A stretch of DNA of 38,355 nt, taken from Spirochaetota bacterium. GTDB taxonomy: Bacteria; Spirochaetota; Brachyspiria; Brachyspirales; JACRPF01. Each line of letters starts with the position of its first letter. Positions within the stretch are counted from its first letter, which is position 1. Of the stretch, positions 7,220 through 25,439 are shown piece after piece. The position numbers and the translations under genes are program-made. The notes below the pieces were generated by a model that was not told the DNA's origin, searched no databases, and saw only the letters and a program-made list of their open reading frames with translations. Location of the stretch: positions 1-38,355 of the forward strand of contig JBBTBY010000092.1 of NCBI GenBank assembly GCA_038043445.1, written 5' to 3'.

Positions 7220-10200
7220 TCAGGGAAGGAAGATCAAAAGTCCGAACCGCGATGTGTCTTTATAATTATTATCATTCCCGCTCCAGAACGCCCGGCCCCG
7301 TTCTTGAAAATTCTTATCCATATCCCGTATCGCCGCCGAAAACCCGATGCTGCTTTTCCGCTCGACACCCATCGCGGCGAACGCATCCCACGGAATACCT
7401 ATCTCCATGATATAGCCGTCAGCTGAACGCGTTGTTTTCATGGCAACGTGTTCAGCGGGAAATGCTTTATTCCCGGCGAATGACAGCGGTCCTTTGAGGA
7501 CCTCGCCTTTTGACGAGGTCCCTTTCACGGTACAGACAAGCTGCAGATCATCGCGGTCAAAAATCGGTTTTGTAATATCCCCTTCGCGGTCAAGATCGAA
7601 AAAAAGCTCGACCGCATCCGTCTGCCAGCTTTCAAGCGGTTTTGTGCCGGTGAACTCGCGGAAATTCACGATCTCATTGTCTTTTACGGTAAAGAGGAAA
7701 TAGACGGCCTTGTCATCATAGGCAGCGCTCATTGCCGCCAATGTTCCGACAGTATACCGCCGCTGCCACACGGGTTCATTCGCCTGTCCGTCGACCGTGA
7801 TCGGTTCCGCCGTTCGATCCGCACCGATCATCGCAAGGGGGACAGTGACGAACAGCGTGTCTTTCAGCGTTTCAACGGATAGTATCATTCCGTTATCATC
7901 GTCGGGAATGCTGACGGGAAACGTGAACGCAATATCCTTGCTGCCGAATGACGGTATCGTGAATTCTTCTTCCGCTGGCCAGGATGGTATCCACGAAGGC
8001 TTGCGCTGTACGGATGCAACGCATAGCTGATGCTGCTGCCCGGCGTTTTTTACCGAAGCGAGGAGCACCGGTGTCGGCCCTGACAACGACAGTATCGTCC
8101 GCTCAATTTTGATCGGGCTGAGGCCTTTCACGGTCATTTTTGAAACGGCGAGCGCACATGCCTCTGCACTGACGCCTTTTGCAAAGATGTATCGCGGTCT
8201 CCTGTCGATCTTTATGGTCGTCCCTCCCGCGGCCGTCTGCACATCAATTTCACCGCCCATCATGTCGGCAACGCGTATTCCCGTGAGTGGAAGCGTACCC
8301 TCGGTATCCAATGCATCGTTCCAGTATACGGCGAACGGTCCCTTCGGCCGATCGAACACATAGGCGACGGTATTCCCTTCCACCGGTACTTCACGGAATA
8401 TTTTTGCGGTATCGTAGATCTCTATCATGAAATTCTGGCCCATCATAGCGGCGTTCGGCGAGCCGTCGAAATTGATGAGCCCGAATTGCGGCGAACCCAG
8501 CCAGATACCGTAGGCGTCCAGATTGAACCAGCTCTGCCGTTCTATGCCGTTGGCCAGTTCATTCGCAAAATGCTTTGACATGAATATGATGCTGTGGTCG
8601 AACGGATGATCACTGCGGGACCCGGATTCCGGTCTGAAATAGTTCGGATAGCCGTAATCATCGAACATGGTCTTGCCGGATTCCGAATCCCATATCCGGA
8701 AGTCCTTGCCGGATATTTTTTTCGCCATCGCCTGCACCTGTCCGACATAGTCGCGGTCTTTCGTGTGATAGCCGTGCACTGCGATCGCGTCCATGAAATC
8801 GCCCGCGCCGATCTTCAGGCAGTTCTTAACCCAGCCGTACAGATCCCCGCCGATATCCCACGTGCCGGTCAGTCCCAGCACGGTCGCGGAGGGGTTCGCT
8901 TTTTTAATGTTTGTGTAGCACGCTTTCAGAAGCGTCAGATATTCGGCTTCGCGCATCTTCACACCGGGCTCATTCCAGCATTCCCAGTGATCTATCTTCC
9001 CTTTGTACCGCAGTGCGGCATCGTAGCAGAATTTCCCGAATGCATCGGGGTCCATGCGCGGCTTGTCTTTACCCCCGCTCGTGCCGCCGAGACTTTTCGG
9101 TCCGGTAAGCGTCCATTGCGGTCCAAAATACCACTGGTGATAATCGCCCTGCCCCGTGGGGAGGGCCATGAGTTCGAAGCCGTACCTGCGGTAGAGGTCG
9201 ACGCAAAAGTCCGCATCATCCCACTGATATACGCCCTTGACATCATTGATCATTTTCATTTCCACCTGACCGTAGAAATGTATCCATTGCCAGCCGATGC
9301 TTTTCGCGAGTTTGGCATACACGTCCGGATGCACCCGCCATGCCGCCATCCGATAGCTGGGATCGGCCGGTGCCATGTACCATGACCGTGCAACTTCCAT
9401 TGTTTCAATGCTTCCGCCGAAACGCTTCGATGTGAGACCGGTACTCAGGTCCTTTATACCGCCGTACATACGCTGCGCTTTTGCTTTTTCCGTCCCCGCG
9501 GTAACGACAGCTTCAATACGGTATTGTCTTCGTTCAACGGCAGGAAGGTCTATGCGCGCGCTGCCGAGTCCCTTCGCATCGAGCTGCATTGCCGCACGCA
9601 TGCGCGACACGACAGTGCCGTTCAGCATATCGGTCACGGTTATCACGGCATCGGCCGTACTGCCGCCCCCGTACACCGCAGCGGAAATATCCGCCTGCGG
9701 TATTTCACCGACGGTATAGATGAGTGTCTGCCGGCTGGCGAAGTCGGACATATCTATGGAGGCATCGATCCGTACTGCCGGTGCATATTCGGCGAGCACG
9801 TTCTTTTCGATCTGGATGCCGTCGAGCCACACCGTCTCGAACACCGGTTTGGACGAGGAAAACAGGTCGAATCCGAGTGCATACATGCCATGCGTGCCGC
9901 CCTGCGTTTCCTTCACAACATCAGCGGCGACATCGAATTCAGCGACCATCCTTGTCCATTGCGTGGGAACCAACATCGTTTTTTGAAAAACATTCTTCCA
10001 CCCGGACTTCAACGCCACAAGTACCGGAGTGTTCGCGACACTTGCTTTCGCGTAGAATGAAATGACTATGTGCGTTTTTTCCTTGAACGAGAGCGCCGGA
10101 AAGAACACCTGTACTGCATCCATGCCGGACGGATTCATGATCTTAAGCGACTTTGCGCCGTGCGCCGCCGTTTCTCCGGTCACCGCCGGCATGACAAAAC

Positions 10201-10354
10201 GGTCCCAGTTACGGATAAATACGCCGGGGTTCGCGTCGTATCCCGCACGCCCGACCTCGAACGATGAATTCTCAATGATGAGATTTTCGGCACCGAGCGA
10301 AAGCACGCCGGCGATGACGATGAACGCTGCCCGGATAATGTTCCTCATGGTCAT
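7220..10354 (-). CDS. Secreted GH-A clan glycoside hydrolase with CBM9-like C-terminus
   Basis: About 1044 residues: signal peptide (MRNIIRAAFIVIAG), an N-terminal carbohydrate-binding-like beta domain (starting ENSSFEVG, to about 210), a TIM-barrel hydrolase, then a C-terminal domain resembling CBM9/DOMON (about 850-1042; PITVDGQANEPVW, then WQTDAVELFFDLD). Catalytic candidates are the Glu in WECWNEPG (near 457, acid/base) and the Glu in WDSESGK (near 553, nucleophile), the pattern of retaining clan GH-A enzymes such as GH39 or GH5 relatives. The exact family is not certain. The frame is open up to 10549, but that stretch overlaps the preceding gene. The ATG at 10354 has AAGG nearby, and the ATG at 10348 is an equal alternative. 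Last gene of the reverse operon. Confidence 0.85.
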   Translation of the reverse strand: MTMRNIIRAAFIVIAGVLSLGAENLIIENSSFEVGRAGYDANPGVFIRNWDRFVMPAVTGETAAHGAKSLKIMNPSGMDAVQVFFPALSFKEKTHIVISFYAKASVANTPVLVALKSGWKNVFQKTMLVPTQWTRMVAEFDVAADVVKETQGGTHGMYALGFDLFSSSKPVFETVWLDGIQIEKNVLAEYAPAVRIDASIDMSDFASRQTLIYTVGEIPQADISAAVYGGGSTADAVITVTDMLNGTVVSRMRAAMQLDAKGLGSARIDLPAVERRQYRIEAVVTAGTEKAKAQRMYGGIKDLSTGLTSKRFGGSIETMEVARSWYMAPADPSYRMAAWRVHPDVYAKLAKSIGWQWIHFYGQVEMKMINDVKGVYQWDDADFCVDLYRRYGFELMALPTGQGDYHQWYFGPQWTLTGPKSLGGTSGGKDKPRMDPDAFGKFCYDAALRYKGKIDHWECWNEPGVKMREAEYLTLLKACYTNIKKANPSATVLGLTGTWDIGGDLYGWVKNCLKIGAGDFMDAIAVHGYHTKDRDYVGQVQAMAKKISGKDFRIWDSESGKTMFDDYGYPNYFRPESGSRSDHPFDHSIIFMSKHFANELANGIERQSWFNLDAYGIWLGSPQFGLINFDGSPNAAMMGQNFMIEIYDTAKIFREVPVEGNTVAYVFDRPKGPFAVYWNDALDTEGTLPLTGIRVADMMGGEIDVQTAAGGTTIKIDRRPRYIFAKGVSAEACALAVSKMTVKGLSPIKIERTILSLSGPTPVLLASVKNAGQQHQLCVASVQRKPSWIPSWPAEEEFTIPSFGSKDIAFTFPVSIPDDDNGMILSVETLKDTLFVTVPLAMIGADRTAEPITVDGQANEPVWQRRYTVGTLAAMSAAYDDKAVYFLFTVKDNEIVNFREFTGTKPLESWQTDAVELFFDLDREGDITKPIFDRDDLQLVCTVKGTSSKGEVLKGPLSFAGNKAFPAEHVAMKTTRSADGYIMEIGIPWDAFAAMGVERKSSIGFSAAIRDMDKNFQERGRAFWSGNDNNYKDTSRFGLLIFLP

Positions 10355-10370
10355 TCCGCCTTTCGCTGAT

Positions 10371-11096
10371 CTATTTCTGCTGCGCATAGGAACGGGGGAA
10401 ATCGTATATCTTGACATCATCGATGCATCCGGCATGTTTTTTTGTGTACACGCTTCCGACGCGGACACTGTACCTGTCATGCGCTTGTATATCCGTCGGC
10501 TCGACCGCCATGACCGCTTTCCATGCATCATCATCCTGCTCAATGGCAACGTCCTTTACGATGCCCGCAGGCGAGCCATCCACATAGAACGCGATGGACG
10601 ATCTTCCCGGATTATCTATCTTCCACGTGAACGCGATATGATGCCACTCATTCGTCTGCCATGCTGTTATTTTTGTGTACTTTATCATCTGTCGAACGCC
10701 CGCTTTATCGCTCACAAGCAGAAAAAGACCCGCGCCCCACCCGTTGATGACACTGAACGAATGCGCGAACGAATCTTTTTCGCTTATCCCGGCGATCGGG
10801 GCAGTTGCGCGGAACATCGCCCAATTGTCTACGGCGGGATCGGTTGACGGGGCAAGCAGCTTTATCCTGAACTCGACGGTGCCCTGTTTCGGGTTCCAGT
10901 ATTTCGACATCGGAAAATAGGCGAGCATGCCGCCGCTCATGCATTTCCCGCCGCGGTCGTCGTCCGCGAGCCCTTCGCCGCGAAGGAGCGCCCCGGCCGT
11001 CTCGATCTTTCCGCCGTTGAAATTCTCTTTTACCAGGCGCGACTCCGCTGCCAGCGGGAGACACATCAGAATAAGCATCATTATCCGTTGTAGCAT
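10371..11096 (-). CDS. Secreted LamG/concanavalin-like carbohydrate-binding protein
   Basis: A 241-residue protein with a signal peptide (MLQRIMMLILMCLPLAAES). It is a single laminin-G-like (concanavalin A-like) jelly roll: QGTVEFRIKLLAP, then NEWHHIAFTWKI, then SIAFYVDGSPAGIV, and near the end the typical GCIDDVKIYDFPRS. Nearly the whole mature protein is this one domain and no catalytic motif is visible, so it may bind glycan for the neighbouring enzymes or be a small hydrolase of the 3-keto-glycoside type. Start chosen at 11096 because AAAGGAA lies just upstream and the longer frame runs into the next gene. The spacing of 16 bases to the GH/CBM9 gene supports one operon. Confidence 0.8.
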   Translation of the reverse strand: MLQRIMMLILMCLPLAAESRLVKENFNGGKIETAGALLRGEGLADDDRGGKCMSGGMLAYFPMSKYWNPKQGTVEFRIKLLAPSTDPAVDNWAMFRATAPIAGISEKDSFAHSFSVINGWGAGLFLLVSDKAGVRQMIKYTKITAWQTNEWHHIAFTWKIDNPGRSSIAFYVDGSPAGIVKDVAIEQDDDAWKAVMAVEPTDIQAHDRYSVRVGSVYTKKHAGCIDDVKIYDFPRSYAQQK

Positions 11097-11176
11097 ACGA
11101 ATTCCTTTGCCGGATTTTATTGTTGATGCAATGTACATCGCATTGTCCTTGAAGTAAATACGGCACATCATTGGGC

Positions 11177-14100
11177 TCATCGTACGGACGCCGTGAACGG
11201 AGAGCGCGCATCGATCCTGCAGGTAACGACGATGCCGTCCTTCGATGATGTTGCGCCCGCAGAACCGTATTTCATGCATCCGCCGGAAAGCGAATAATTC
11301 TTTCCTTTTACAATGCCGTGATCACTTTCACTGAGCGTGAATGAGACGTTCTGCGCCGCGGGGCTTATGTTGTACAATGCGATGCCGAGCTCGCCCTCGG
11401 GCGAACGCCATGCCGAAGCAAGCACGGCGGGCATTTCGATATCATAGCACTGATCGCTCCACCCGCGATACCATTTCACATCGACGGCGGGAGTTCCCCC
11501 CAGCGCCGGTTCACGAAGCATATCGCCGTAGAGAAGGAATTGCTTCGATGCTGCGTATGCCTCATATCTGCGCCGTGAGGATTCATACGCGATATCGCTG
11601 TTTTTATAGGTGAGGAACAGGTTTGGGATGTTCCAGCCGGCCTTTACGCCCCAGACGAATATCTGACCGAACTTTGCGACATAGCCCATCGCGTCCTTTT
11701 GCTCAACGTCCTGCCTGTTCACCCACGCGGAATACAATATTGTGCGGTCATGATACACGGCATGCGCGAGCGGAATGGGGAACGCATGGTCCTTGTGAAG
11801 ATACTGGAACGTCGTATTGCATGACATGTAGGCATCAAGCTCCGCCATATTCCCTTCCCAAAAACTTTCCGCGGTAAAGCATACATCCGGATCTATACTC
11901 CGCGCCGCGTTCTTGAGCTCGCGTATGAGCTTTCGCTGTCCGTGAATGTAGCCGGTACCGCCGCCGCTGTCGGTGCTCTCAAGCGGATTGAAGTTAAGAT
12001 ACGTGCCGCCGTGATTCCCGGAATCAAGATATATCGACTTGAAACCGGCCGCCGCCATTTTTTCCACCGCAGCCTTGAGGCGTTTTGTCCACGTCTCTCC
12101 CGGATATGCTATCGCTGGCGTCAATTTCCCGAGTGGCCAGACAACACGCTGATCGTACAGATTACGCACGGTATGGTCCATGCCGTTGTCTTCCTGAAAG
12201 CTCGCTGCATTCGTGTCCCAGCAAATGCCCTGCAGATATCCCATGAGCGGATAGTGCGCTGCTTTCGCTTTCGCCATGTACGTTTCGGTCGCCGCATCGA
12301 TGGGGAAAACATCCGGCGTCTCTTTTTCAAGCTCATGCGTCCTCGACCAATTGTAGGTGATAAGCCCCGTGTTCATGCCGCTGACGAGCGCTTTCATTTT
12401 ATCGCCGTATATCTGCGATTGATCCTTGTTCACGCCCCAGAGCAGCCATTCGTCGATATCCTTGAACCACTTCGGTATCGTCCGTGTTGCGAGCGGTCCT
12501 TCGGCAGTCCATGTCTGCGTAAGCGCCCATGTACGATAGATGCGCGCCGCATCGTACCAATCCCCTGAAAAACATCGGATAACGGTTTCGTATGGAGTCG
12601 ACCACTCCTGGGGGACCTTCTTCATGTTATTCGGCACATGAACGACGGCCCATGAGATCCCGCCCTCGTCCGCGGCGAGCACATAGCGTTTCGCGTTCTC
12701 CGCTCCGTCGAAGCAGCCGAGATACAGCCCCTCGCCGTTGTGATAGTACGCATCGAACTGCATGCTGTGGCCGGAGCGGTTGGGCTGAAATCGCCGCTTC
12801 TGACCGAGCACGCCGTTGTGTATCGGATCATGGATGAGACGCCCGTCGGAAGCCGGTGTTGCAAGTCTGTCGCGCGAGGTATCCTTATCGGATGGATATA
12901 CCCCCCCGACGATGGGCGCTGTCAGATAGAACACGGTATAGTTCTTGCTGCGATTGATGATGCCCGCTGTGCTCCTGAGGAATGCATCGCCCGGAGCGAG
13001 CGATATCGATACCCACACATCGAGAACGCCGCTTTCAGCGCCGACAGCCATATTATTCCAATGATACGTTATCGAACCTTTCGATGTCTCGCTTGAACAG
13101 TCCGCCTTGAGCGCGCCAGCCCGCATGGTGAGGGTATCGCCGCCCGCATCATCCTTTGATGCCACGCGGTCATCCTGCTCGGGGTCGAGCGAGAGGGCCA
13201 CCGTCGATGCGGCAGGGCGTGAATGTATGCTGCGGAGTTCGATCTCCCAGAGCGGCGGCACCTTCGCATTGATGAATTCGACGCCGTTCGCGCTGCGAAT
13301 GCTCGCAATGCTGCCCCCCTCGGCTGGCGGCAGGAGCGCGATGCGGATATGCTCGTTCGCAAGTTCGGCACGCGATGTGCTTACCTCAGCGTTCACCAGG
13401 CGCGATAGATACGCCGGATACGCATCACCGGTTATCGTGCCTTCGCCTTTCATGCCGGCGCCGAAGGTGAGACTGTCGCCGAAGCAGACGATGATATCGC
13501 CTTTTTTTATTGTACCGATCGCCCTAGCGACTTCCGCCGCAAAGAGCGCATACCCCTCCGGCATATAGTGCACACCGTCGGCCGCCGAGTTCGCCTTGTT
13601 GCGGAGAAGCGATGTTTTGTCCTCTTTCGGTTCGCCGCGCGAACGAAAGACCGCGTTCAGATCGACAAGCGCCGCTTTTTGTTCAGCCGCCACTTCGCGC
13701 ACGATGTTGTTGTATGCGTCTATCTTCGCGTTCGGCGACCCATCGGCAAAGAATTCTTTCTTATGACGGGAGAGCAGATATGCCTCGATGACCGGCGTGA
13801 TGGTGACGAGCACGGGAAGCGCGCCTTTCTCCCGCACACGAGCGATCATCGTCGTCAGATTTTCACGATACGTTTGCGGCGCTACTGCATTGCCCGAGTT
13901 CACGCTGTCATTCATGCCGAAATACAGAACGACATGGGTCGGATCGAGCGCAAGCACATCGCTCTCCATGCGGGATAGCCCCTGCTTTGTATTGTTCCCG
14001 CCGATGCCTTTGTTGTGAACGGTTATACCTGCACTTTTCTGTACACTGTCCATGGTCCTATCTCCAGCAGAAACATTTATCGCCGAAATATCGCTGAAAC

Positions 14101-14674
14101 GAACGCCCGGTTCATATGACCAGACGCCTGCTCCGCGCCCGGTGAACGAGGCGTCCTTCACCTCGAATTTTTTAACACCGTCGACGAATGCGGATGCAAT
14201 GCCGCTCCTGATCGTTATCGTAAGTTCATATGAAGTATCCATTGCATGCGTTTCGCTCAAGCGCGCAACGATATCCGAGCGCACGCCGTTCTCCATTTTC
14301 TGCAGCGCCGTCTGCTTTGCGCTGATGAAAAACACGTAGCCGTTCCTCCCGTCGAGCATGCCGGCGGCCACACCGCTTCCGGACATTTTTCCTTCGACCG
14401 CTTTTACCTTTGCCGAGAATGAATATCCGCCGGAACCGGGAAGTTCGCGCCAGAGAAGGGCATCGAGTCCCTTGACTGACGTACATGCTCCGCTCCCGAC
14501 GCTCCATGTTCCTTTCGCCGTCCGCCATTCCGGAGCACCATCGCTATCGTCCGCGTACTTTTGCAGGTCGTCCTTAAGAAGGACCGGATCATTTCCGGCA
14601 ATGAGAAACATCGACATGACGGCCAGTGACAATGCAGCGCCAATGCGGTGCATCGGTCTCGATAGGTATGTCAT
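11177..14674 (-). CDS. Secreted fusion: binding domain, permuted SGNH esterase, glycosidase-like barrel (DUF6259-like)
   Basis: 1165 residues with a signal peptide (hydrophobic core about residues 12-27). Domain 1 (about 30-210) is a jelly-roll binding domain. Domain 2 (about 215-430) carries all four SGNH/GDSL esterase blocks in the wrong order: block II (KGIGGNNT, near 223), block III (FGMNDS, near 253), block V (DGVHY, near 366), then block I (CFGDSLTFGAG, near 399). Domain 3 (about 440-1165) is a beta-sandwich plus TIM-barrel with the SMQFDAYYHNGEGLY and GDWYDAARIYRTWAL segments I associate with DUF6259 proteins. Candidate acids are YLDSGNHGG and FTAESFWEG. It would deacetylate and cut an acetylated polysaccharide outside the cytoplasm. 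A TTG at 14716 gives a longer frame, but the ATG at 14674 has AAGGAG at ideal spacing. Confidence 0.85.
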   Translation of the reverse strand: MTYLSRPMHRIGAALSLAVMSMFLIAGNDPVLLKDDLQKYADDSDGAPEWRTAKGTWSVGSGACTSVKGLDALLWRELPGSGGYSFSAKVKAVEGKMSGSGVAAGMLDGRNGYVFFISAKQTALQKMENGVRSDIVARLSETHAMDTSYELTITIRSGIASAFVDGVKKFEVKDASFTGRGAGVWSYEPGVRFSDISAINVSAGDRTMDSVQKSAGITVHNKGIGGNNTKQGLSRMESDVLALDPTHVVLYFGMNDSVNSGNAVAPQTYRENLTTMIARVREKGALPVLVTITPVIEAYLLSRHKKEFFADGSPNAKIDAYNNIVREVAAEQKAALVDLNAVFRSRGEPKEDKTSLLRNKANSAADGVHYMPEGYALFAAEVARAIGTIKKGDIIVCFGDSLTFGAGMKGEGTITGDAYPAYLSRLVNAEVSTSRAELANEHIRIALLPPAEGGSIASIRSANGVEFINAKVPPLWEIELRSIHSRPAASTVALSLDPEQDDRVASKDDAGGDTLTMRAGALKADCSSETSKGSITYHWNNMAVGAESGVLDVWVSISLAPGDAFLRSTAGIINRSKNYTVFYLTAPIVGGVYPSDKDTSRDRLATPASDGRLIHDPIHNGVLGQKRRFQPNRSGHSMQFDAYYHNGEGLYLGCFDGAENAKRYVLAADEGGISWAVVHVPNNMKKVPQEWSTPYETVIRCFSGDWYDAARIYRTWALTQTWTAEGPLATRTIPKWFKDIDEWLLWGVNKDQSQIYGDKMKALVSGMNTGLITYNWSRTHELEKETPDVFPIDAATETYMAKAKAAHYPLMGYLQGICWDTNAASFQEDNGMDHTVRNLYDQRVVWPLGKLTPAIAYPGETWTKRLKAAVEKMAAAGFKSIYLDSGNHGGTYLNFNPLESTDSGGGTGYIHGQRKLIRELKNAARSIDPDVCFTAESFWEGNMAELDAYMSCNTTFQYLHKDHAFPIPLAHAVYHDRTILYSAWVNRQDVEQKDAMGYVAKFGQIFVWGVKAGWNIPNLFLTYKNSDIAYESSRRRYEAYAASKQFLLYGDMLREPALGGTPAVDVKWYRGWSDQCYDIEMPAVLASAWRSPEGELGIALYNISPAAQNVSFTLSESDHGIVKGKNYSLSGGCMKYGSAGATSSKDGIVVTCRIDARSPFTASVR

Positions 14675-14712
14675 TGCACTGCTCCTTGCCGGTCTTTCTA
14701 GGGACTCTTCGT

Positions 14713-16791
14713 TCAATGAATATACACCGCGGAATCAAATGGGGCAATCTCGATAAGCCCTCTTCGCTTCCGATCGCCGCCCGCTGGTGAACATACGTCA
14801 GCCCCCTCCGGCAGCCGTGCACGCTGCCGCTTCGCGGTGCGATTGAATACGAACGTCATCGTACGCTCGCCGCCGGTCAAGTCCCGCGTATACACACCGT
14901 TCCTGGCGGATCGTCCGGATGCGATCCCGTATCCGGAGAGTATACGCATGAGCATTACGGCATGCGGCGAAGCGTTCGTATCGCCGGCCGGTCTGTCGCC
15001 GAGCCAGTCGATGAATGATGCCCCGAACGCCGTACCGATGATGGTGTTCTGTCCCGATACACCCGCCGATCGTCCGTCGCACCAGGAAGCGAACGATCTC
15101 CCATGCTTCGGGATAAGCGAGCTTACAAAACCGTACGCGGGAACACGGACGCCGTGAGCGTTCATGCATGCGCCCCCTTTTTCAGCACGCACTCGTTCGA
15201 CTATTTCTGCGCCGAACAGCTTCTTGCAGCGGTCCGACGGCCAATTGGAATGAAGCCAGGTGTTCTTCTGTCTGAGCCCGACGCCCTCCTCGGCGATGAT
15301 ATGCCCGCCGCGCGCGGAAAACGCTTCAAGCGCGGCGAGTGTTCTTTCGGAAGCCATGTACATCTGCGGTAGATAGAGGACGTTCACGCCAGCGGACTTT
15401 TCCGCAAGCGATCGGCTGTCGATGAAACGAGGTACATAGCCCATCTCCCGGAGCAGCGCGTATATCCCCATGAGCGACTTTTTATACAGGTACGGATATC
15501 CGCCGCACAGTTCGAACGACCAGAACCCGCGCGGTCCGGCATTATTGCCGGTATTCTCGATGCGGCTTATCATATCGCTGTCAAGATCGTAGACGATGCC
15601 GATGGGGTCATCGACGACATTCGCCCGCATGAGAAGATCGCCGTGCTTTTTTATGACACTTGAAATGTGCGCACACTCATGGGTAATGCCGCGAAAGCTT
15701 CCATCGATGTTCACGAGGCCGGAAAGATCATCCTCATTGCCGAGCCGCTCCGAGCGGTACTGCCAATACAAGAGCCCCTTGCTCCCGCCCGCTAATGCCG
15801 ACAAGACCTTGAACCGGTAGTCTTCTATTGAACAGGGCTTGCCCCAATTGCGCCAATCGGGATACAGTTCATACGCCCAGAAATACGGCGATACCGAACG
15901 CATCCAATCGCACAGCATGAACGGTATCGCCTGCGATCGCACGGACCCGACGGAATACACCGTGTATGACATGCCGTAGAAATCGACGGCTGCCGAGTTC
16001 TGAACGTCATCGGAGCCCTGCGCCACATCCTGTACGACACTGCAGGCTCCGACATGCGACATTATCGGATGTCCGCTGTCCGCCGACTTCACCGCGGCGT
16101 ACATGAACGACAGACGTGCGGCTACCGCGGAAAGCGACCAGGTGCGCCACAGGAAAAGTTCCGCATAATCGTACGCCATCCCCGGAGGATCGATGGTGTC
16201 GAACGAGCCCCAGCATTTACCGAACGTGTCATTGAGCGATTCTATCGTCCCGTAGCGCTTCGTAAGCCATGCACGATACGCGCTGCGTGAATGCTCGCAG
16301 CTGCATTCACCGATGGGGCGACTCACCGGTTCGTTCCAGATGTTCCAGAAAAGGAGGTTTTTCCTGCTCTTATACCGTTCTGCAAAAACGCGGACGAACC
16401 GTTCTGCGAACCGGATCACGTCAGGATTATCGAAACAGGGCCACCAGCCGCCGACATAGTATGCGCCGTGCGCCCCGGGGGAGAGCGGTATGCCGTCAAG
16501 GCCGATGCGTGTGCCGCCGTAATTTTTGAATATATAATCCGGCGCCGTTTCCATGAGGAATTTCACGATGACGGAATGTCCGTTCTTCTCGGCAAGGTCA
16601 AAAAGTTCGTCAACATCATCAAAGCGGTATTGACCTTCGGTGCGCTCATTCCACCGCCACTGTATGCGTATCTGGAACGCATCGAGACCAGCGGCTTTCA
16701 TCCCGTCCATATCAGTCGACCATTCCGACGGGAGCGGCGTCGGAGCGCGGTAGTACTGCGTGCCGTAAATGAATCGTGACAGTCCAGCCAT
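14713..16791 (-). CDS. GH42-type beta-galactosidase family enzyme, cytosolic
   Basis: A 692-residue enzyme without a signal peptide. It begins with SRFIYGTQYYRAPTPLPSEW, then DMDGMKAAGLDAFQIRIQWRWNE, a GH42/GH-A barrel start. The acid/base Glu is in NIWNEPV (near 154) and the likely nucleophile Glu is in FWAYELYP (near 308). A Rossmann-like region (about 400-580; PIGIVYDLDSD, LREMGYVPRFID, GGHIIAEEG) matches the GH42 trimerisation domain, followed by a small beta domain. It would hydrolyse galactosides or similar oligosaccharides after import. The start at 16791 has AGGAG six bases upstream; the frame is open further but overlaps the AraC gene. First enzyme gene after its regulator; its stop lies 38 bases before the next gene. 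Confidence 0.88.
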   Translation of the reverse strand: MAGLSRFIYGTQYYRAPTPLPSEWSTDMDGMKAAGLDAFQIRIQWRWNERTEGQYRFDDVDELFDLAEKNGHSVIVKFLMETAPDYIFKNYGGTRIGLDGIPLSPGAHGAYYVGGWWPCFDNPDVIRFAERFVRVFAERYKSRKNLLFWNIWNEPVSRPIGECSCEHSRSAYRAWLTKRYGTIESLNDTFGKCWGSFDTIDPPGMAYDYAELFLWRTWSLSAVAARLSFMYAAVKSADSGHPIMSHVGACSVVQDVAQGSDDVQNSAAVDFYGMSYTVYSVGSVRSQAIPFMLCDWMRSVSPYFWAYELYPDWRNWGKPCSIEDYRFKVLSALAGGSKGLLYWQYRSERLGNEDDLSGLVNIDGSFRGITHECAHISSVIKKHGDLLMRANVVDDPIGIVYDLDSDMISRIENTGNNAGPRGFWSFELCGGYPYLYKKSLMGIYALLREMGYVPRFIDSRSLAEKSAGVNVLYLPQMYMASERTLAALEAFSARGGHIIAEEGVGLRQKNTWLHSNWPSDRCKKLFGAEIVERVRAEKGGACMNAHGVRVPAYGFVSSLIPKHGRSFASWCDGRSAGVSGQNTIIGTAFGASFIDWLGDRPAGDTNASPHAVMLMRILSGYGIASGRSARNGVYTRDLTGGERTMTFVFNRTAKRQRARLPEGADVCSPAGGDRKRRGLIEIAPFDSAVYIH

Positions 16792-16874
16792 GGGAGCTCC
16801 TAACGATCGCATACGGTCAAATATAGCCGAACCAGTTCCGAAGACGATATACGATCCCGCTATTTGTTTGTTCG

Positions 16875-17747
16875 TTACCGCTTTCGTGATTTTTGCTGTG
16901 CTCTGCCGGCCCAGACGGTGGGTGAACACTGTGCGTATTGTTTGAATTTCCTTGATAAGTGGAACACGCTGCTGAATCCGAGCGCGTGCGCCGCTTCGGA
17001 TACGCTCAGACCGGATACGCCGATGAGACGCTTCGCCTCTTCGATCCGTACGCTCATCGCATACTTGAGCGGCGACGCACCGACATGCTCCTTGAAAAGG
17101 TGGCCGAGATAATCGGGTGATACTGCACAGGCGTCGGCTATCTCATCGAGCCGTATCGTCCGCGAACGGTTCTCTGCGGCATATTCACGCGCGGCTTCGA
17201 CGATAGCGAGCTGGCGCATCGTCCCTTCCGTGCTGTCAATGGCCTTTACGGCTCTACGTATATGCCAGATAAGCGCCAGTATCTCGGCATCGATGATATC
17301 CTTCGCGCCCGGCTTATCTTCCTGCGCTTCCTTTGCGATACACGCGAACAGCTCTGCGATCTTTGCAGGAGTACTCGGGATGAACTGCTTTTTTACAGGC
17401 AGCCCGGATACGAGCGGTTCACCGCTGCCGGAGACACCTCTGCTGTCGAATTTCATATAGTGGAACGAGAGCGGCGTACGTATGCTTCGTTCGGCATGCG
17501 TCTGCCCTGTCATGACAAAATACATGCCTCCGGCATTCACCGGATATTCTTCACCGTCGATGGAAACAAGAGCGGAACCCTCGATCGCGAGGAAGCATTC
17601 ATTGCATCGATGCATGTGCGCCGGATACGACCATGCGCTGCGATGACGCATTTTTCCGATATGAATGAAACGGGGAACGAGCATGCGTGATGCATTACTA
17701 CGGGCCGTACGGTAAAAATGATCGCTGGTGTCTGCGCGGTATTTCAT
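16875..17747 (-). CDS. AraC-family transcriptional regulator with cupin sensor
   Basis: A 290-residue regulator. The N-terminal half is a cupin-type sensor (WSYPAHMHRCNECFLAIEGSALVSIDGEEY, read as two parts near residues 40-68), whose His/Glu residues usually line the ligand pocket. The C-terminal ~100 residues hold two helix-turn-helix motifs (IRLDEIADACAVSPDYLGHLFKE and VSEAAHALGFSSVFHLSRKFKQY). It lies 83 bases upstream of the GH42 gene on the same strand and most likely controls that cluster in response to a sugar. There is no clear Shine-Dalgarno at 17747. The promoter upstream is strong, and a 12-base sequence shared with the sulfatase promoter overlaps its -10 box, suggesting self-control. 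Confidence 0.9.
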   Translation of the reverse strand: MKYRADTSDHFYRTARSNASRMLVPRFIHIGKMRHRSAWSYPAHMHRCNECFLAIEGSALVSIDGEEYPVNAGGMYFVMTGQTHAERSIRTPLSFHYMKFDSRGVSGSGEPLVSGLPVKKQFIPSTPAKIAELFACIAKEAQEDKPGAKDIIDAEILALIWHIRRAVKAIDSTEGTMRQLAIVEAAREYAAENRSRTIRLDEIADACAVSPDYLGHLFKEHVGASPLKYAMSVRIEEAKRLIGVSGLSVSEAAHALGFSSVFHLSRKFKQYAQCSPTVWAGRAQQKSRKR

Positions 17748-21554: not shown

Positions 21555-24476
21555 TTAGGGGTTATTTTTCTTTATGAAATATATATTACGCAGAAGTATC
21601 CCCTGCGGCGGATTCTTTCCCCCGTACTGGAATAGCACCTCTCTTACCTCAGCCGGCCCCGTGAACTCGCCGTGCGTCATGCGCTGCCATGTCGACGCAT
21701 CGCCGTCTATGGGCATCATAAGCCTCGCCTGATTCTTCTGCTTCGTATCGGTCACGGCGGTTATCTGCACCCCCGGCGGCGGAAGCGGTTTCCCGAATTC
21801 GTCGACGCCGGTAAAGTTTATCTCATAGACCATGCGCCATACGCCGTCGGGAAGCTGAAGACCGCGGCCGTTTTTACCCCGGATATTCACGCCGCCCCAT
21901 TGATTTTTTCCGTCTGACGGCACGGTTATAACGCACGGGTCCTCAGTGCCGACTGACGCCGTGAGCGTTCCGACATTGAACGCGACCGCCTCAAAGCCGA
22001 CAAGCGAAGGTCCCGCGATGACGGGGTCGCCCGGAAAGGGGTCGGGTATCGATGCCGTATTCCCCTTGGGCTTTTCTTCGAGCGATGCAAGATATGCATT
22101 GTTCTTCATAATGAGCTGTGCGGTACGTTCGCGTACCGAGACATCGGTGATCACGCCGCCTCCCCATGCGCGCTTCTTCGCGCTCACGAGAATGAGCACA
22201 CGCTCCTGCGCGGGAAGCGTGAGCGTAATGCCTGAGGCGAGATCTTCTGCCGACCAGGTATCGCCCGCCGATATATAGCGGTCACCGCTTACGCCGTCGC
22301 ATACATGCCATGCCCGGTTCCCCACGCGCATTTTGAGCGCTGCGGTCTTCGATACCGCGCCCCAATTGATGATGCAGGCAAGAATGGCATCGCCCCGATC
22401 GATGACATCGATGGTTACACCCGTATCGATCACATTGCCGTCGAATACCGCGAAGGAGCGTTTTACACCGGCAGTTTTGAGGAGCGCGGCATACGCCCCC
22501 GCGAGCGTATTATCCCCGCTTGAGAACATCGGCGTGTAAACTTTTCCTTTGCCGATAGTATGCGCGTACACCGCAGTACCGCCGCTGGTCCAGGTTGCGA
22601 ACGCCTCCGCTTTCGGCGCGCGTGCTGAAACGGCATGCGCATATCTCCCGGTGAACACAGCGTCGGCGAGTCCGTCCGGGAATACAACGCTGTCGACACC
22701 CGAAGCCTTCTCGAACGCAAGCCCGGTGATCTCGGATGGATCAAGAGGCCTGCCGTATTCATTCATCGTGAACGCATTGGGTGATGCGATGATAACGCCG
22801 CCGTTCCCGGCATACGACAGGAGCATGCGGCGCACGGACGCCGGGGCGAATTCTGCCGCTGGACAGATGACAACGCGGTAGCGCGCGAGCTCTTCTGCCT
22901 TCGTCATCTCCGCAATAATGAAATCGAACGGCATCTGCATGCGCCGAAGCGATTCATACGCGGATGCATATGCTTCATATTCGCGTCCTTTGAGCTGCCA
23001 TGTCTGATGATCGATGACAAGCACGCCGACGTCGGCCTTCACGCGCGTTGACGGGAGCACGATGTCCGCAAGACGGTCCATCTCCTCGCGGAAGCGTTTC
23101 AATCCAAGGAGCGCCTCCGGGGGGTAATTGTATGGATTGAGGAGATATGCTTCCTTGTATCCCGCACTCTGCGCCGATTTTTTCGCTTCTTCGTACGTTT
23201 TCCATTCCCAGCCGCGATGCCCCCAGGTATAGACGATGCTCCCGGAATGTCCCGCGAACGCCTGATGCCAGAGCGTCGTTTCGAAATCGTGCTCCCATGA
23301 CGGCACGCGGACGCCGTTCACATAGCGGCAGGTGCGCATCTCGAAATCGACCACGGGGCGGCCTTTCGCATAGGCGCGTGCGAGTGCGGCGCCGGTGAAC
23401 ATTGTCCTGTTGCCGACGCCGAAGCCCGCTTCCATCATGTCCTTGCCGTCAAAGCTCTTCTTGCTCCCTATTGAAAAATGGATGCCCGTGTATTCAACAC
23501 CGATGACATCGAGGAAATCGCTCCACGTATAGTTGTACGCGGTGTTGTATGCCATTACCGGCACCTGATGCATGGGCTGCAGCGAGAAATATTTCGGTAC
23601 CGGGCGCTTATCCGCAGAAAGGACCGTGTTCTTGAACTCGCGAAGATAGCCGGCAAGGAGCTCGGACTGAAAATACATCCAGTCATACCACAGGCCGCGG
23701 TCATTGTCTTGCACGCTCTCCACGGACGCCGCGGCGGCATCGAACGACGCATGGGATGTTCCCCAGGCCTTGTTCGCAGCATCGATGATGCTGTGCTTCT
23801 TTTTCAGGTATGACACAAAAAGCGTGATGTTTTCCGGCGAGAAGCTGTTATAGAACGGCTCATTGACGAGCTCGTAGAGGAACGGCTTCGCACCATTATC
23901 GATGACGAATTTCGTGGCGTCATGGAACATCGTCTTGTAGAGCTCCATGCTTTTGGGATAGCTCGGATCGAGCGGAAAGAAATCGCACCACCATTTACTT
24001 TTCTGGAAATGATCTGCCGGGAGATTCTTCCGTGCCCGTGCGCCAAAGCCCAAATGGAGTCCCATATCCGAGTATTCGAGCATGACCGGCATATCGCTCA
24101 TGCGTCCGATGACGTTCTTCGCCACCCGTTCCGCGCTGCCGAAATAATCCTCAACGCCCCGTTCGGTGAATTTGGTCAGCATCGACGGATAATGCTTTTT
24201 CATGATGAAATAGCTCATGAAGTTGATCGGGTGCCAGGTGTTGAAGCCGAGGTCTTCGCACATCGTCTTGTCGATGACCTCGGCATAACGGCGATCGCTC
24301 GACCATGCCCCGCGGCGGTCGTACTGCGTGTCCTCCTCCCAGTACATGAAGGGTCCCGTGTAAAAAACGGGTCTGCCGTCCTGGTAGAACGTACCGTTCG
24401 AGATGACGATGGCGCTTTCGGATGCGAGCGGTATGGCGATGAACACGACAAGGAGAATTGCGCGGTTCAATTTCAT
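21555..24476 (-). CDS. Secreted GH-A clan glycoside hydrolase (beta-galactosidase-like)
   Basis: 973 residues with a signal peptide (MKLNRAILLVVFIAIPLASES). The N-terminal TIM barrel starts NGTFYQDGRPVFYTGPFMYW and carries the acid/base Glu in YELVNEPF (near 205) and a likely nucleophile Glu in VVDFEMRTC (near 378), as in clan GH-A. A Rossmann-like domain follows (about 500-640; VKADVGVLVIDHQTW, YRVVICPAAEFA, GNGGVIIASPNAF), similar to the GH42 trimerisation domain. The C-terminal part (about 780-973) is beta-rich, perhaps carbohydrate-binding. It would act on a galactan or similar polymer outside the cytoplasm. The start at 24476 has GGAG upstream; the longer frame to 24656 overlaps the divergent AraC gene. 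It is probably controlled by that regulator. Confidence 0.85.
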   Translation of the reverse strand: MKLNRAILLVVFIAIPLASESAIVISNGTFYQDGRPVFYTGPFMYWEEDTQYDRRGAWSSDRRYAEVIDKTMCEDLGFNTWHPINFMSYFIMKKHYPSMLTKFTERGVEDYFGSAERVAKNVIGRMSDMPVMLEYSDMGLHLGFGARARKNLPADHFQKSKWWCDFFPLDPSYPKSMELYKTMFHDATKFVIDNGAKPFLYELVNEPFYNSFSPENITLFVSYLKKKHSIIDAANKAWGTSHASFDAAAASVESVQDNDRGLWYDWMYFQSELLAGYLREFKNTVLSADKRPVPKYFSLQPMHQVPVMAYNTAYNYTWSDFLDVIGVEYTGIHFSIGSKKSFDGKDMMEAGFGVGNRTMFTGAALARAYAKGRPVVDFEMRTCRYVNGVRVPSWEHDFETTLWHQAFAGHSGSIVYTWGHRGWEWKTYEEAKKSAQSAGYKEAYLLNPYNYPPEALLGLKRFREEMDRLADIVLPSTRVKADVGVLVIDHQTWQLKGREYEAYASAYESLRRMQMPFDFIIAEMTKAEELARYRVVICPAAEFAPASVRRMLLSYAGNGGVIIASPNAFTMNEYGRPLDPSEITGLAFEKASGVDSVVFPDGLADAVFTGRYAHAVSARAPKAEAFATWTSGGTAVYAHTIGKGKVYTPMFSSGDNTLAGAYAALLKTAGVKRSFAVFDGNVIDTGVTIDVIDRGDAILACIINWGAVSKTAALKMRVGNRAWHVCDGVSGDRYISAGDTWSAEDLASGITLTLPAQERVLILVSAKKRAWGGGVITDVSVRERTAQLIMKNNAYLASLEEKPKGNTASIPDPFPGDPVIAGPSLVGFEAVAFNVGTLTASVGTEDPCVITVPSDGKNQWGGVNIRGKNGRGLQLPDGVWRMVYEINFTGVDEFGKPLPPPGVQITAVTDTKQKNQARLMMPIDGDASTWQRMTHGEFTGPAEVREVLFQYGGKNPPQGILLRNIYFIKKNNP

Positions 24477-24529
24477 GGCGTGACACTCCGGCATCGTTGC
24501 GTTACGGCTTTCGCGAAGGGCGCATACGG

Positions 24530-24537
24530 TGTATAAT
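24530..24537. promoter_or_regulatory. Overlapping divergent -10 boxes
   Basis: On the + strand TATAAT (24532-24537) suits the AraC gene at 24561. On the - strand TATACA (24535-24530) suits the hydrolase gene at 24476. Neither has a good -35 box, which fits promoters that need an activator. The ten bases CGCATACGGT just beside them (24521-24530) also occur at 16808-16817, upstream of the GH42 gene. Confidence 0.4.
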
Positions 24538-24560
24538 AATCGATAATCGCATAAAATGGA

Positions 24561-25439
24561 ATGGAAACAATGCGCATACAATTGGACAAAAGAAGCATCG
24601 AGACCATCGAGGGTTTCCGCATGTCCACGATGCTCGATCTCCCGCTCGTGGTCCACTGCTTCGGCTCATCGCGCTGGTATGCACCGTTTTCCGTGAGCAA
24701 TGACCGGTACGATGCGTTCAGTATAGAATACGTTACTGCCGGGGAGGGTGAGCTTACCGCTGACGGAAAGCGATACCCCCTCAGACCCGGCGATGTATTT
24801 CTCCTCCATCGCGGGGGGACGCATGCATACCGTGCGCTCGGGGATGCCGCGTTCCGCAAGATCTGGATGCGTCTTTCGGGACCGCTCGCGGAATACCTCA
24901 TCAAGATACACGGTCTTTCGGATGTGCATCATGTTCCCGCGTGTATGCACATGAAGGATATCTTTACCCGCATGCGATCGTTCGGTGTCCGCGCGCATCA
25001 CACGAACGCCCCCGGGCGGTATATCGCCGACGGCTTTTCGCTCATCCTGCATGAGATGCTTCTTATGCTCGCGGCGCGTCTCGATGTTCGCACCGTATCG
25101 TTCTCCGCCGATGTCGTACGCATGAAGAATTATCTCGATGCGATGATTGAAAAGGATGTCCGCCTCGCTGATGTGGCGTCGCGGGCGGGCAAATCCGCAT
25201 CGCAGACGATACGGAAATTCAAGCGCGAGCTCGGCACCACGCCGTATCAGTATCTCCTCAGCCGGAAAATGGAATTGGCGGAATATCTCCTCGCCAATAC
25301 CGGCATGAACGTCCGCGAGGTGGCGCGTGAGACCGGCTTTGCCGACGAGCAGTATTTCTCCCGTGCGTTCAAGGCGCGAACGCGCCGTCGCCCGAGCGAA
25401 GTGAAAAGCCGACGTATTGAACATACGCCCGGCGTGTGA
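24561..25439 (+). CDS. AraC-family transcriptional regulator
   Basis: A 292-residue regulator divergent from the secreted hydrolase. The N-terminal sensor half is cupin-like (FSIEYVTAGEGELTADGKRY, then PLRPGDVFLLHRGGTHAYR). The C-terminal DNA-binding half has two helix-turn-helix motifs (DVRLADVASRAGKSASQTIRKFKRE and NVREVARETGFADEQYFSRAFKA). The intergenic gap is only 84 bases, so it very likely controls the hydrolase gene and itself. An ATG at 24570 is an equal start, with GGAA nearby. The predicted promoter of the next gene begins inside its last codons. Confidence 0.9.
   Translation: METMRIQLDKRSIETIEGFRMSTMLDLPLVVHCFGSSRWYAPFSVSNDRYDAFSIEYVTAGEGELTADGKRYPLRPGDVFLLHRGGTHAYRALGDAAFRKIWMRLSGPLAEYLIKIHGLSDVHHVPACMHMKDIFTRMRSFGVRAHHTNAPGRYIADGFSLILHEMLLMLAARLDVRTVSFSADVVRMKNYLDAMIEKDVRLADVASRAGKSASQTIRKFKRELGTTPYQYLLSRKMELAEYLLANTGMNVREVARETGFADEQYFSRAFKARTRRRPSEVKSRRIEHTPGV

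Follow-up and report, generated by a model that had tools for sequence, protein, structure and literature searches.

A putative circularly permuted SGNH hydrolase domain joined to a DUF6259 barrel in a Spirochaetota bacterium

The locus and its three-domain protein

The window (the whole stretch of DNA analysed here, 38,355 nucleotides of a Spirochaetota genome) includes a cluster of co-directional, nearly overlapping genes, all on the minus strand. At its head is an AraC-family regulator (16875..17747), followed by a GH42-type glycosidase with a trimerisation domain (14713..16929), the gene that concerns us here (11177..14716) and, downstream, genes with a LamG/concanavalin-like domain (10371..11279) and a CBM9-like domain (7220..10549). 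The cluster looks like a glycan-use operon. An alginate-lyase-family protein (PF05426; 6048-7184, plus strand) and a second, divergent GH42-like protein (21555-24656, minus strand) are encoded nearby.

The gene of interest is an open reading frame of 1179 amino acids with a TTG start, in which residue i begins at base 14716-3(i-1). The true start is likely to be the ATG at 14674 (residue 15), which would provide the protein with the signal peptide MTYLSRPMHRIGAALSLAVMSMFLIAGN. The original prediction described a three-domain secreted enzyme, and this layout holds. The N-terminal domain is a beta-sandwich (residues 42-215; 14072..14593, minus strand) with no Pfam family and a weak match to a levanase CBM66 (E 0.005); from this resemblance, it is probably a carbohydrate-binding domain. 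The central SGNH domain (residues 215-445; 13382..14074, minus strand) scores well above the curated cut-offs of both PF13472 (92.6 bits against 32.9) and PF00657 (72.6 bits against 23.6). The C-terminal part carries a DUF6259 domain (PF19773; residues 706-996; 11729..12601, minus strand; 119.5 bits against a cut-off of 28.7), a probable glycoside hydrolase barrel. The fusion of these last two domains recurs in other genomes (see below).

Order of the catalytic blocks

Canonical SGNH hydrolases present their catalytic blocks in the order I-II-III-V. The window domain runs II-III-V-I. Block II (KGIGGNNT, residues 236-243; 13988..14011) includes the predicted oxyanion residue Gly240 and is followed by block III (FGMNDS, residues 266-271; 13904..13921), with Asn269 in the same predicted role, and by block V (DGVHY, residues 380-384; 13565..13579), with Asp380 and His383. 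Block I (FGDSLTFGAG, residues 412-421; 13454..13483), carrying the predicted nucleophile Ser415, comes only then, at the C-terminal end of the domain. It is followed by YPAYLSRLVN (13391..13420), which corresponds to the first helix of the canonical fold and is where standalone members of the family end. All five segments are read from the minus strand. The order and positions given in the original prediction are all correct by motif positions in the 1179-residue frame, and its estimate of about 30 residues between blocks V and I compares with 27 between the motifs. The entire protein contains a single GDS/GNS motif (residues 413-415), with none upstream of block II. A cysteine at residue 411 (13484-13486), four residues ahead of the catalytic serine (C-x-G-D-S), is found in every one of the 63 permuted proteins described below.

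The Pfam Lipase_GDSL_2 profile aligns to the protein only from profile position 25 to 178 (residues 223-391), leaving block I outside the match. If the tail is rotated to the front, the same profile aligns from position 1 to 178 and scores rise by 1.4 to 10.6 bits. Scored with an SGNH profile derived from 39 canonical relatives, rotated members improve by a mean of 24.5 bits (minimum 7.4) over 31 rows, some of which represent the same protein twice. A control with a shuffled tail placed in front gains a mean of 1.8 bits (maximum 3.6). Since the rotated tail both extends the Pfam alignment and adds far more than its shuffled counterpart, the permuted order goes beyond what chance would give.

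AlphaFold2 models were built from an input of seven permuted sequences. The window domain is modelled as one compact domain (pLDDT 89.5, pTM 0.88), and a Chitinophaga protein gives similar values (pLDDT 83.1, pTM 0.86). In both models block I forms a strand, followed by a C-terminal helix. Foldseek retrieves canonical SGNH esterases aligned chiefly over the II-V part, as expected when a permuted protein is compared sequentially, and the top-ranking PDB structures are acetylxylan esterases or GDSL esterases. No PDB chain in which block I follows block V was seen by either sequence or fold search; among the sequence matches listed, all end by position 187 of the 224-position profile.

Members, distribution and origin of the permuted family

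Profile searches identified 63 distinct permuted members in Spirochaetota, Bacteroidota, Kiritimatiellae, Verrucomicrobiota, Lentisphaeria and Planctomycetota. Homologues with the same block order, which the original prediction proposed looking for, thus occur in several phyla. Conservation of the catalytic residues is almost complete: Ser, Asn and His are present in 63/63 members, Gly and Asp each in 62/63, and the distance from His to Ser varies only between 31 and 35. An ordinary block I upstream of the domain would have contradicted the proposed permutation, and a GDS-like block I within the preceding 90 residues was found in 0/63. In the loci scanned with a permuted-order profile, members score 238-306 bits with matches running to the profile end. 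Canonical SGNHs in these loci reach at most 132 bits, stop by position 182 of 219 and have block I upstream wherever the search pattern could recognise a block I.

The closest view of the domain on its own is given by a standalone secreted homologue of 253 amino acids, 58% identical to the window domain, from the one further genome of this Spirochaetota family in the set. It opens with a signal peptide and block II and ends right behind block I, with the helix YPAVLFRLLNH as its last element. Such proteins bear on whether the window domain is merely a truncated SGNH domain (blocks II-V) followed by the start of a second incomplete one, that is, inactive debris of a tandem duplication. Circular permutations usually arise via tandem duplication and Pfam detects only an N-terminally incomplete GDSL domain here, both of which suit such an origin. 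This explanation is nevertheless very unlikely, given that the 63 members conserve their catalytic residues and keep the His-to-Ser distance nearly constant, that standalone proteins are composed of the permuted domain alone and that the AlphaFold2 model shows a single confident domain. The model and the standalone proteins also bear out the original prediction of one domain rather than two incomplete ones.

Among about 85,000 species genomes scanned, whole-domain matches turned up in Chitinophaga varians, C. qingshengii, Cerasicoccus frondis (all three isolates), a Kiritimatiellae metagenome-assembled genome (MAG) and a Verrucomicrobiia MAG. In Lentisphaeria, 49 of 198 genomes have members (70 places). 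The family was found in 11 of 149 Chitinophagaceae, 4 of 395 Bacteroidota and, within the planctomycete phylum, 8 of 294 genomes. In the Kiritimatiellae class, 6 of 193 genomes have a member and three more matches are canonical; in the Cerasicoccus class, 2 of 286 have one and two more matches are canonical. Only 2 of 247 Spirochaetota genomes carry a member, and both belong to the window's own family, which suggests that this lineage acquired the gene horizontally. Viral contigs contained canonical SGNHs only, with no permuted member and no DUF6259 match. Plasmids gave partial matches, those annotated being named as ordinary SGNH/GDSL proteins or rhamnogalacturonan acetylesterases.

The window comes from an assembly of 178 contigs, and an assembly or frameshift error in a metagenome-assembled genome could in principle mimic a permutation. 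We give this practically no weight: independent genomes from several phyla, isolates as well as MAGs, show the same block order without a break in the reading frame. Four members do contain one in-frame stop (L139 at 1384-2070 in G1527; L128 at 23-631 in G1455; G1451:C111; and G1454:C51). In L139 a TAA directly follows GDSLT, where its near relative L140 reads through. These four may be pseudogenes or sequencing errors.

The nearest canonical sequences are five cousins from Kiritimatiellae and Verrucomicrobiia (L078-L080, L092 and L093). Among canonical sequences they score highest against the permuted profile (107-132 bits), and they resemble permuted members in the RHxxxxY region, but their block I stands immediately ahead of block II, as is usual. 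When a tree was built from the block II-V core without block I, the 23 permuted members separated from the canonical sequences at a single branch (support 90/81; recovered in 90% of bootstrap trees); the canonical rows were picked by similarity, and several lie on long branches. This topology fits a permutation that arose once, although it falls short of proof.

Known relatives, fusion partners and the proposed enzyme

The window domain shares with canonical SGNH/GDSL proteins (PF13472) the four blocks with their consensus residues and the core strands and helices from II to V. The nearest solved examples are AlAXEase (7ddy), 3p94, 4iyj, 1yzf and Axe2. What sets the window domain apart is the place of block I behind block V, which no canonical or solved relative found shares.

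Block order marks out the canonical subgroup, to which the window domain does not belong, but not the superfamily as a whole, where permuted SGNH-like folds are already known. AlgJ, AlgX and PatB1 have the order V-I-II-III (PMC9487903; PMC4148444). The original prediction that SGNH/GDSL hydrolases always start with block I was therefore too strong (PMC9487903). These proteins (the alginate O-acetyltransferases AlgJ/AlgX and PatB1 of the DHHW family) are permuted like the window family, but the cut lies between III and V instead of between I and II. They also have degenerate motifs (GTSYS, DxH, Tyr for Asn) and extra cap features, whereas the window family keeps canonical GDS, GN, ND and DxxH. 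The window domain has neither the order nor the degenerate motifs that define the AlgX and DHHW groups. In the open-access literature searched, we found no description of the order II-III-V-I, the only permuted SGNHs there being of the AlgX/AlgJ/PatB1 kind. Similarly, no assayed or crystallised member of the II-III-V-I family was found in the PDB or the open-access literature searched.

AlgX and PatB1 represent the two characterised permuted SGNH groups and both are O-acetyltransferases (PMC9487903). By this precedent, the window domain could be an acyltransferase, or else an esterase for another acyl group, instead of a deacetylase. We consider this rather unlikely. Here the Gly of block II and the Asn of block III conform to the canonical motifs, from which AlgX, AlgJ and PatB1 deviate, and the nearest solved relatives are acetylxylan esterases. 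In addition, the genes sit among glycan-degrading genes (other members have genes for a SusC-like receptor, sulfatase, GH38 and alpha-L-fucosidase as neighbours), and the domain recurs in fusions with glycosidase-type domains. Relatives, gene context and fusions point indirectly to a putative glycan esterase.

Thirteen proteins, including that of the window, combine the permuted SGNH domain with a DUF6259 barrel. Two of the 12 others (L145-L148, L150, L151, L153-L155, L157, L158 and L160) end inside the barrel at a contig or reading-frame end. A protein from the Kiritimatiellae class carries NPCBM, melibiase and GH36C domains together with the permuted domain on one chain. With thirteen DUF6259 fusions and one GH36 fusion, the original idea of a deacetylase plus glycosidase gains support. 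Further partners are a ceramidase-like domain (L021), an FAD oxidoreductase (L163) and CBM4_9. Because of the ceramidase-like and FAD oxidoreductase fusions, not every member need act with a glycosidase. The window's nearest relative (L018) is without the DUF6259 fusion.

The C-terminal barrel of the window protein belongs with the DUF6259 proteins (PF19773), but sits behind a permuted SGNH domain. Its residues Asp898, Glu950 and Glu954 are invariant among 11 fused proteins and are candidate catalytic acids. No characterised DUF6259 member was found in the literature searched. The domain is strongly expanded in the Kiritimatiellae class, with 11-14 matches per genome in three genomes (G063, G252 and G164), which suggests a large uncharacterised glycosidase family.

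We consider it highly probable that residues 215-445 form a complete, circularly permuted SGNH hydrolase, with a putative role as a secreted glycan deacetylase working together with the DUF6259 barrel. The first strand, the nucleophile elbow and the first helix (block I and YPAYLSRL) have moved to its C terminus, where a linker of about 10 residues connects them to what was formerly the last helix, and the domain now begins at the strand leading into block II. The four blocks would come together in one site. Ser415 would attack the ester carbonyl with help from His383 and Asp380, the oxyanion being stabilised by Gly240, Asn269 and the Ser415 amide, and the acyl-enzyme would then be hydrolysed. 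The secreted enzyme would strip acetyl (or other short acyl) esters from a glycan to which the N-terminal beta-sandwich binds, and the DUF6259 barrel would cut the glycosidic bond thus exposed. What the comparisons described above show directly is the permutation, the family with its invariant motifs, a confident single-domain model, recurrent fusion to glycosidase-type domains and a glycan-use gene context; esterase activity, the acetyl substrate, the geometry of the active site and the cooperation of the two catalytic domains are what we infer.

More broadly, and with moderate confidence, we favour the view that these proteins constitute an undescribed carbohydrate esterase family, in which a canonical SGNH site underwent a permutation, apparently a single one, with the break between blocks I and II, and that the enzyme then spread among PVC bacteria, Bacteroidota and one Spirochaetota lineage, where repeated fusion to glycosidases placed a deacetylase and a glycosidase on one chain. 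Standard annotation conceals the permutation: Pfam calls an N-terminally incomplete GDSL domain with the catalytic serine outside the match. The family is common in Lentisphaeria, where a quarter of the sampled genomes carry it. It represents a natural permutation of a much-studied esterase fold with every catalytic motif intact, unlike the known permuted SGNH acetyltransferases, and is a ready case for examining the effects of permutation on folding and catalysis. In the window protein, a single polypeptide links putative deacetylation with an uncharacterised DUF6259 barrel.
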